Of a stretch of 32,321 bases of DNA, positions 22,503 to 24,323 are shown piece by piece. Origin of the DNA: Rhodobacter sp. CACIA14H1 (GTDB taxonomy: Bacteria > Pseudomonadota > Alphaproteobacteria > Rhodobacterales > Rhodobacteraceae); the NCBI GenBank assembly GCA_000500915.1, contig AYNO01000025.1, positions 1 through 32,321 of the forward strand, in the 5' to 3' direction. The notes beneath the pieces are model-generated. The model did no database searches. It worked only from the letters and a program-made list of their open reading frames with translations, and was not told the DNA's origin. Positions within the stretch are counted from its first letter, which is position 1; each line of letters starts with the position of its first letter. A program made the translations under genes and the position numbers.

Positions 22503-22940
22503 TCAGGGCTGGTCGCCCGCCCGCACCCCGTCATGGCGGAAATCGGGCCGCAGCAACTGGTCCAGCATCCCGGACAGGTCCTCGATCCCCTCGGCCACGA
22601 CATGCACCACGCCCGCCTCGCGCTGCACCCGCCCCGTCACCCGCAGCATCCGCCCCGCGATCACCGCACGGCGGAACCGTTCATAGACCTTTGCCCAGAC
22701 CACCACGTTGCAGGTCCCCGTCTCGTCCTCCAGCGTGACGAAGATCACCCCCTTCGCAGTGCCCGGCCGCTGCCGCACCAGCACCAGCCCCGCCACGCAG
22801 ACCCGCGCCCCGACCGGCGGCTCGTCCAGCCGTGCCGCCACCAGCGCGGCCGGCGGGCGCGGCCATGACCCGGGCACAGCCGTCCGCGCCATCCAGCGCG
22901 ACGGCGGCTGCGGACCGGAAGGAAAAACGAGGCTCGACAT
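22503..22940 (-). CDS. DnaE2/ImuC C-terminal OB-fold fragment, possibly a remnant of an SOS mutagenesis operon
   Basis: The 145-residue ORF contains '[27 protein letters not shown]', continues '[14 protein letters not shown]', then '[21 protein letters not shown]'. These are the hallmark C-terminal OB-fold sequences of the error-prone polymerase DnaE2 (ImuC), normally beyond residue 900. The PHP, polymerase and HhH domains are absent and nothing upstream encodes them. The first 35 residues do not resemble DnaE2. The ATG at 22940 lies 2 nt after a consensus alphaproteobacterial SOS box. This fits an internal deletion of an imuA-imuB-dnaE2 operon, or a stand-alone SOS-regulated OB-fold protein. 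No Shine-Dalgarno is visible, so translation may be leaderless. Confidence 0.75.
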
Positions 22941-22942
22941 GA

Positions 22943-22976
22943 GAACAAATATGGAACAAATCCATCCGCAGCACAA
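22943..22976 (-). promoter_or_regulatory. SOS (LexA) box and overlapping promoter
   Basis: On the minus strand GTTC-CATATTT-GTTC (22957-22943) is an exact match to the alphaproteobacterial LexA site GTTC-N7-GTTC, with an AT-rich spacer. A promoter overlaps it: TTGTGC (22976-22971), 17-nt spacing, CATATT (22953-22948). LexA would cover the -10. The expected +1 lies at or within a few bases of the ATG at 22940. Confidence 0.8.
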
Positions 22977-23008: not shown

Positions 23009-23544
<536 letters not shown>

Positions 23545-24180
23545 TCACGCCAGCAGCAGCGCCGCCTCGGCGGCATCGGCGCAGGGGCGCACCGGCCGGC
23601 AGGCCTGCAGCGCCGTGGCGGCCTGCGGAAAGATCGCCACGATCTCGGCCAGCGTCGCGGGCGACAGGCTCGCGGCATCGGCGGCGAAGGGATGGTAGCT
23701 TTCCGTCGGCGCCCCCTCGGCAAAGACGATCTCGTGCCGGTCGAACAGCAGGTGGAAATATTCCACCGACGCTACCGGCTCCACCCGCACGCCGGCGCGG
23801 TCCACCAGGTGCCGCGCCTCCACCAGAATCTCCGGCTCGCCCGTCGCCAGTTCTGCCCGCCATCCCGTCACCATCATCCGGTGATGCGGCGACACGCGCA
23901 GGCTGCGGGCATTCCCCAGAACCCCGGCGTCAAAGACCACCGGCGCCAGCGCCCCCGTCCCGTCCACCACCTTGGACAGCACGCGACGGACCGGCTGCAA
24001 CCCGTTATCCATCGTCTCGACCAGCATCCCGTCCCGGATATCCTCGACCGCGACCAGACCCGCCGCCGTCTCGACCCGGGTGCCGCGCACCAGACAGGCC
24101 AGCTCCGTCCGCGCAAAGACCTCGGGCGCCGCTTCCAGCAGCCCGGGGGCAGACATCCCGCAATCCGACACAACGTCCAT
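23545..24180 (-). CDS. Hint-domain protein (Hint_2 type)
   Basis: The 211-residue protein has a Hint (hedgehog/intein) fold. Its start is 'ACLVRGTRVETAAGLVAVEDIRDGMLVET', with a Cys at the position of the self-splicing nucleophile, followed by 'NGLQPVRRVL' and 'SPHHRMMVTG'. In Rhodobacteraceae such stand-alone Hint proteins are numerous and uncharacterised. Only about 27 residues precede the Cys, so there is no N-extein or cargo of note. The start is ATG 24180, or GTG 24183, which has better spacing to GAGG. It could undergo N-terminal self-cleavage or be catalytically silent. Confidence 0.85.
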   Translation of the reverse strand: MDVVSDCGMSAPGLLEAAPEVFARTELACLVRGTRVETAAGLVAVEDIRDGMLVETMDNGLQPVRRVLSKVVDGTGALAPVVFDAGVLGNARSLRVSPHHRMMVTGWRAELATGEPEILVEARHLVDRAGVRVEPVASVEYFHLLFDRHEIVFAEGAPTESYHPFAADAASLSPATLAEIVAIFPQAATALQACRPVRPCADAAEAALLLA

Positions 24181-24323
24181 CACTCGTCACCTCGACACAG
24201 CGGGCCTCACATCCGGCCCGTTAACCACGAAGATTGCGCCGGATTGGGCCGCAAATAAGGCCGAACCGGACCGGAACCGGTTCCATTTCGGGTCGCGCTT
24301 CGGCCGGATGGCCTGCCGCCGCC

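Follow-up and report, generated by a model that had tools for sequence, protein, structure and literature searches.

A stand-alone, SOS-boxed OB-fold gene of the Rhodobacteraceae as the probable missing domain of a split DnaE2 polymerase

Introduction

The error-prone polymerase DnaE2 drives SOS mutagenesis in many bacteria, and the alphaproteobacterial LexA consensus is GTTC-N7-GTTC. In the accessible portions of the literature, several DnaE2 sequences without an OB domain are reported (Timinskas et al., PMC3919608), ImuB is described in a split form with an inactive PolY and a standalone ImuB-C, alongside other variants of the mutasome modules (PMC6511836, PMC12926913), and the mycobacterial cassette has imuA'-imuB apart from dnaE2 (PMC6511836). 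Excerpts of two further papers report strong covariation of imuB and dnaE2 in Phaeobacter inhibens, where both share an operon (PMC10883770), and name GTTC-N7-GTTC as the LexA consensus (PMC6473078). The accessible portions of PMC6473078 and PMC10421592 contain nothing on OB, and no description of a separate gene for the DnaE2 OB domain appears among the literature matches listed, as judged by titles and the beginnings of abstracts and with many subscription papers outside this scope.

The stretch of DNA analysed here (the window) comprises 32,321 nucleotides of Rhodobacter sp. CACIA14H1, from an assembly of 236 contigs that is 87.9% complete. It contains a separate ORF for a DnaE2-type OB fold. 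Comparison with related genomes (G numbers; contigs and loci are given C and L numbers) indicates that many Rhodobacter-type bacteria seem to use two distant genes for DnaE2, each supplying one piece of it; the ORF in the window probably codes for the DNA-gripping one.

Sequence and domain assignment of the OB-fold protein

The minus-strand ORF at 22503..22940 encodes a stand-alone DnaE2-type OB-fold protein of 145 amino acids (P0001), an assignment drawing on the ORF, Pfam, the error-prone polymerase model NF004225 and a predicted structural model. The Pfam OB family PF01336 matches residues 47–122 (E-value 3e-14), which together with conserved residues delimits the OB-fold core (22575..22802, minus strand). 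The protein aligns with positions 944–1040 of the 1047-position NF004225 with an E-value of 3e-31, compared with 6.5e-08 for the best replicative alpha model. It covers the C-terminal OB domain of DnaE2 and nothing else, as the preliminary description of this DNA had read it. The predicted structure comprises five strands, the third and fourth of which flank a helical stretch (mean pLDDT 80, with two of the five models at only ∼49), and the predicted model used as a PDB query has OB proteins among its neighbours. A PDB sequence search with the single protein produced ten weak rows.

The OB gene is under purifying selection as judged from the coding sequences: the median dN/dS is 0.20 over 152 same-genus pairs, and the reading frame is open in all 17 same-genus loci, one of which is cut by a contig end. 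In an alignment of 34 fused DnaE2 OB domains with 64 stand-alone ones, 29 of the 33 positions conserved at 80% or more in the fused domains keep their residue in the stand-alone form; the 34 fused domains are those among 45 rows with the QRPxxA motif used to cut them out, so that a few of the 33 positions are conserved by construction. This retention is as expected if the stand-alone OB domain still does the same job. The stand-alone form has in addition an N-terminal motif, WPRPP, identified from the alignment (residues 26–30; 22851..22865, minus strand), in which Pro27, Pro29 and Pro30 are invariant in the 64 aligned stand-alone rows. Some members of the family that are not in this alignment lack the motif (G104, G117, G124, G067 and G148).

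The complementary DnaE2 body

NF004225 matches the window organism's genome at three places: a replicative-type polymerase (contig C40), the OB ORF and DnaE2 (contig C43). The DnaE2 covers only positions 4–940 of the model, with the OB ORF covering 944–1040, and the split point falls between positions 940 and 944. A covalent link is absent, the OB domain being a separate ORF and the body lying on another contig. The preliminary description had envisaged a stand-alone, SOS-induced OB-fold protein together with a full-length DnaE2 elsewhere. The first part stands; as to the second, the search of this genome yields only the 4–940 body on C43, which lacks exactly the OB domain, and imuB only as a fragment. 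The role of helper or competitor of a full-length DnaE2 was considered and rejected, since the DnaE2 of the same genome has no OB domain and genomes with only fused DnaE2 have no OB gene.

The body (G000:C43:11341-14151; approximately 5841–8661 of L200) contains an in-frame TGA near codon 140, and part of it can be read only in a different frame; this reflects either a lesion or an assembly error. It has an SOS box of its own (L200:5795), as have the same-genus dnaE2 loci.

A stand-alone OB ORF is present in 17 of the 18 other genomes of the genus, and in the same 17 the DnaE2 match stops before the OB domain (fragmented in G010 and G015); the remaining genome, G004, has neither. The split body ends soon after a conserved LRxxLTP motif. 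In G098 and G185 the last residues of the body, HPRSVRHFG and HPRNMRHFA, are similar to the tail of fused DnaE2.

SOS box, promoter and start codon

The LexA/SOS box GTTCCATATTTGTTC (22943..22957, minus strand), assigned from its sequence and its conservation in relatives, ends 2 nt before the ATG at 22940, from which the ORF runs for 145 codons to 22503. Sequence and upstream alignment also place a −10 element, CATATT (22948..22953, minus strand; TATnTT in relatives), inside the box and a −35 element, TTGTGC (22971..22976, minus strand), 17 nt from it. The box, its distance from the ATG, the overlapping promoter and the unusual leaderless layout had all been pointed out in the preliminary description; the first three are borne out by the sequence or by the related loci, and the layout is conserved and probably leaderless.

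By count alone the box is weak evidence (two GTTC-N7-GTTC matches in the window against 0.68 expected, a number reached in 14 of 100 shuffles), and conservation and position therefore decide whether it is real. A GTTC-N7-GTTC site lies just upstream of the OB gene in 73 of 80 related loci (over 20 named genera), and in 55 of these 73 the next in-frame ATG is exactly at +2 from the box. Within the genus the box is found in 17 of 17 OB loci, with the ATG at +2 in 14, and in a second family set in 23 of 25, being absent in G117 and G048; these three sets overlap, some genomes being in more than one. Aligned upstream regions of 74 OB loci share a TTG (−35), a spacing of 16–17 nt and TATnTT within the box; in most of them an ATG follows, 17 nt from where the box starts. 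Since the −10 element lies inside the box with conserved spacing, +1 is expected at the A of the ATG or directly beside it, and the message is probably leaderless.

The first in-frame ATG lies 37–43 nt or more after the box, or is otherwise further off, in five of the 73 boxed loci. Five loci (L069, L083, L085, L090 and L133) have the ferredoxin neighbour described below and no recognizable box at the OB gene, the regulation of which may have changed there, and in L135 the box site is in the opposite orientation. In L143 (Mangrovicoccus) the OB core is joined to an unrelated open frame, with neither the ferredoxin gene nor GTTC-N7-GTTC, possibly owing to misassembly.

The sequences thus identify the ORF as a real gene for a stand-alone DnaE2 OB-fold protein with an SOS box. 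As for a member of the LexA regulon, its promoter carries a GTTC-N7-GTTC site that is conserved in orthologues; LexA would be expected to bind there and DNA damage to induce the gene.

The second GTTC-N7-GTTC match in the window, GTTCCGGTCCGGTTC (24263-24277, minus strand), has a G+C-rich core, lies upstream of the frame 23545-24183 and is probably due to chance.

Genomic site

The OB gene occupies a fixed position. A divergent gene (23221..23544, plus strand), which we take from its motif to encode a 2Fe–2S ferredoxin, is a conserved syntenic neighbour, lying divergently upstream of the OB gene in 79 of 80 loci at a distance that is mostly below 400 bp and at most 1.2 kb. For comparison, 28 ferredoxin loci were taken from genomes with fused DnaE2, from DnaE2-less genomes and from two exceptional genomes (G078 and G098, see below). 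One or other of the window's neighbours on the far side, a degP-like gene or the 21909-22442 gene, is kept in 22 of these 28. None of the 28 has an OB-oriented box at a distance of up to 600 bp, and a clear OB piece is present in one alone, as a 45-residue remnant in G020 (L350; E-value 8e-10), a genome with two fused DnaE2 copies. Matches at the ferredoxin site in G083 and G109 are at chance level (E-value ∼0.02).

The G020 remnant indicates that OB decay does occur where fused DnaE2 is present, and it lends some colour to one suggestion of the preliminary description, that the ORF in the window is the decaying remainder of a deleted imuA-imuB-dnaE2 cassette of which promoter and tail were kept. 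For the window this account is hardly tenable: the gene is under purifying selection (dN/dS ∼0.2, with the frame open in the 17 same-genus loci), its syntenic site is fixed and the box is kept in 73 of 80 loci. The preliminary description had linked decay to a remote dnaE2 with its own box together with a lack of conservation of the ORF in relatives; the remote boxed dnaE2 is there, and the ORF is, on the contrary, strongly conserved.

Two further loci deserve mention. A Rhodobacteraceae OB–ferredoxin locus is carried by L081 (CP059262.1), which is titled as an Exiguobacterium profundum MAG, an organism name that is probably wrong. Plasmid pDB-1 of Sphingopyxis sp. DBS4 (NZ_CP102385.1; L414:6040-6441) carries, in a different taxonomic order, a stand-alone DnaE2-like OB gene, 43% identical and annotated as an OB-fold protein; GTTC-N7-GTTC is absent from 12 kb of this locus. 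This gene indicates that stand-alone OB ORFs can arise elsewhere and are not confined to the split system.

Co-occurrence of the OB gene and the OB-less body

The distribution was followed in 159 evenly drawn Rhodobacteraceae genomes, with classes assigned by hand from match tables; the matches listed include all the strong DnaE2 rows. The strong matches end mostly at approximately 937–978 or at 1038–1047 of NF004225, fragments and G119 apart; G119 was scored as fused because its OB domain is in the same open frame as the body. A stand-alone OB gene is present in 60 of the 62 genomes with an OB-less DnaE2 and in none of the 66 with fused DnaE2 only (Fisher p = 1e-34, not corrected for the tree). 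Neither DnaE2 nor the OB gene is found in 18 of the 159. Outside the main classes are four genomes in which DnaE2 is fragmentary and the OB match falls in a piece close to the end of a contig (G112, G125, G129 and G188), a third dnaE2 copy in G043 that apparently runs over contig ends, and the drafts G132 and G175, in which the body is partial and a profile search recovered no OB gene.

The 62 genomes include G069, apparently Dinoroseobacter shibae, which was counted among them despite an additional fused copy on a plasmid beside its chromosomal split set (L225 and L226). This coexistence speaks for a negative regulator, a free OB protein competing with DnaE1 or fused DnaE2 for DNA or for ImuB; competition with a full-length DnaE2 had been suggested in the preliminary description. 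Such a role is nevertheless highly improbable, as a fused copy is present in only one of the 60 split genomes with an OB gene, and no fused-only genome has the gene.

The two genomes with a body and no OB gene, G078 and G098, are drafts, in which the profile search likewise found none. In G098 the contig continues for only 222 bp upstream of the ferredoxin gene, the distance in the window from the ferredoxin ATG to the OB ATG being 281 bp, and in G078 the ferredoxin gene itself was not found, though it is present in 28 of the 30 genomes searched. Both cases look like assembly gaps.

An OB gene without a full body occurs in six genomes, five of them fragmented assemblies (G055, G095, G102, G151 and G191). 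The sixth, G085, is the clearest exception to the pairing: in its seven contigs, listed as 100% complete, the OB gene (intact and boxed), ImuB and ImuA are present (L174, L265, L266 and L377), and a DnaE2 body was not found in this near-complete assembly. Chiefly because of G085, the main rival explanation is that the OB-less DnaE2 works alone and that the OB protein has become an independent SOS protein with another job, such as coating single-stranded DNA, docking to ImuB or modulating another polymerase. The WPRPP motif peculiar to the stand-alone form, and the several DnaE2s without an OB domain noted in the accessible part of Timinskas et al. (PMC3919608), are in keeping with it. It is unlikely, though not negligibly so: the OB gene is gained and lost together with the body, is absent from all 66 fused-only genomes, shows a residual rate correlation with the body and keeps 29 of the 33 residues of the fused domain. 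The likely explanation remains a split DnaE2, the OB domain of which is supplied in trans from an unlinked gene.

Phylogeny and joint inheritance

The 43 split sequences in a tree of 85 DnaE2s, the other 42 being fused, group as one clade (SH-aLRT 97), to which the fused DnaE2 of G022 is sister. This suggests that the OB-less polymerases go back to a single fission. The tree is a quick search without bootstrap in which 19 of 82 inner branches are open and the outgroup does not form one side of a branch; long-branch warnings concern two fused rows and the pair of G124 and G067, and 12 loci are omitted (eight duplicates and four broken, partial or wrongly started rows).

On a quick RpoB tree of 69 genomes (30 from the search and 39 chosen), the split state is interleaved, with 21 changes against a shuffled mean of 22.7, and 135 of 500 shuffles are as low; 25 of its 66 inner branches are open, with a long-branch warning for G093 with G048. 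Every other DnaE2-less genome whose rpoB was usable is among the chosen rows (11, with G042 excepted), as are the three that tell against a split polymerase, G078, G098 and G085. When 68 rows of this tree are compared by pairs, the body provides 18 independent contrasts, with the OB gene concordant in about 16, opposed in none and without difference in about two (median p = 3e-5). Without the six genomes below 90% completeness, about 15 of 16 contrasts are concordant and none opposed.

Pairwise distances of the OB protein and the body, with RpoB removed, give a partial r of 0.87 for 19 genomes, 0.49 for the 16 that remain after three fast lineages are left out and 0.48 for 15, with none of 2000 permutations reaching such values; the correlation could stem from shared pressures. 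Given the interleaved states and the unlinked pieces, the simplest account would be an old, vertically inherited split set with repeated replacement or loss, that is, one fission followed by many joint losses of the unlinked halves. Fused DnaE2 is found on plasmids of the order, where the best 20 rows comprise 18 annotated as error-prone DNA polymerase and two unannotated. The 126-kb plasmid of D. shibae bears an imuA-imuB-dnaE2 cassette according to the accessible text of PMC9426580.

Organization of imuA, imuB and dnaE2

ImuA- and ImuB-like proteins are present in relatives of the window organism, the incomplete genome of which has an ImuB fragment and no clear ImuA. ImuA adjoins ImuB in 14 fused-type loci (13 distinct), with no ImuA found in the dnaE2 loci of G024 and G022, and none of the split-type imuB genes in the loci searched has imuA beside it. 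The imuA-imuB-dnaE2 cassette of the split genomes is mostly dispersed: for 61 split bodies, imuB sits on a different contig in 36 cases, at least 23 kb away on the contig of the body in 17 and within 7 kb in eight. In the divergent G124 and G067 (L216 and L217), imuB and an ORF of approximately 300 amino acids lie immediately before the OB-less dnaE2, and the OB gene of both remains by the ferredoxin gene with its box.

In the split genomes examined each dispersed gene usually carries its own box, as judged from raw motif counts without a shuffled control. For imuB, sampled from 17 split genomes and G085, GAAC-N7-GAAC marks the beginning of the gene in 18 of 19 loci, the nineteenth being the fragment at a contig end in the window genome. 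The imuA box lies 76–147 nt upstream of the aligned start in all 16 loci (15 split genomes and G085), and for 50 loci of the dnaE2 body, representing 45 distinct genes, a box within 100 nt is exact in 28, of the weaker form GAAC-N7-GAAT in 20 and absent in two (G067 and G117).

ImuB itself differs between the two types. Among 25 genomes that have the OB gene (L250-L268, L390, L406, L411-L413), 23 carry an ImuB insert of approximately 45 amino acids, which none of 15 fused-type ImuBs has, so that two fixed motifs are 60–84 residues apart in the 23 and 22–33 in all 15. The exceptions are G117 (26 residues) and G124 (22 residues). The insert has a conserved core near GDAIDQEARATRSRA, which varies in G067 and G075. 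A strict link between WPRPP and the ImuB insert was ruled out by G104, which has the insert and not the motif.

An order of events is suggested by G022, the fused sister, in which imuA, imuB and dnaE2 lie apart and ImuB has no insert; by G117, the deepest split lineage, with its OB ORF away from the ferredoxin gene and unboxed, a fused-type tail (THPRDQSKLLF) and ImuB without the insert; and by the tails of G098 and G185. Dispersal would have come first, after which the 3' end was copied out and the OB domain lost from the parent; the site next to the ferredoxin gene, the SOS box and the ImuB insert would be later steps.

Functional implications

The complementary pieces, their co-occurrence, joint gain and loss, the rate correlation, the fixed site, the boxes and the ImuB insert all argue for an OB domain acting in trans. 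The points against it are G085, the bodies without an OB gene (G078, G098 and G175), the unboxed loci including G048, the Sphingopyxis gene and the defect in the window organism's own dnaE2. The OB protein presumably associates physically with the body. Upon DNA damage LexA would leave the promoters of imuA, imuB, the OB-less dnaE2 and the OB gene; the parts would then come together, with the OB protein rejoining the polymerase or the ImuB complex in trans to hold the single-stranded template. The WPRPP peptide and the ImuB insert may serve for docking. Both the protein–protein contact and the role in bypass are proposed here from sequence comparison.

A stronger form of the proposal is a two-piece C-family polymerase, in which DnaE2 works only when the OB subunit joins in trans from a separately timed leaderless SOS gene, perhaps held by WPRPP and the ImuB insert. 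This is possible, with the balance tilting somewhat against it. If true, the OB protein would act as a licensing switch for mutagenic synthesis, and the whole scattered system would be displaced repeatedly by mobile fused cassettes.

The natural split makes the part played by the OB domain in lesion bypass directly testable, since the domain can be removed, mistimed or titrated with the polymerase untouched. For annotation, a component is missed when an OB-less DnaE2 is taken as complete or the OB ORF as an orphan OB protein. The pair also illustrates, at good resolution, how a gene can be split and its unlinked parts then be lost together.

Comparison with known systems

Homologues of the components of the proteobacterial ImuA–ImuB–DnaE2 (ImuC) mutasome are present in the split genomes, usually with LexA-type sites. 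The split genomes differ from that system in that the genes lie mostly apart, the OB domain has its own gene and ImuB mostly carries the insert of approximately 45 residues. A missing OB domain is common to the split bodies and to the OB-less DnaE2/DnaE3 architectures described in the accessible part of PMC3919608; a separate OB gene is not mentioned in that part, whereas here one is found that is boxed, syntenic and co-inherited. As far as the excerpts of the reports on them extend, the mycobacterial imuA'-imuB and dnaE2 resemble the present genes in occupying separate loci, with dnaE2 there separate but not cut, and the split ImuB is similar in that a mutasome module has become a standalone protein, the difference being that ImuB is cut there and the polymerase itself here.
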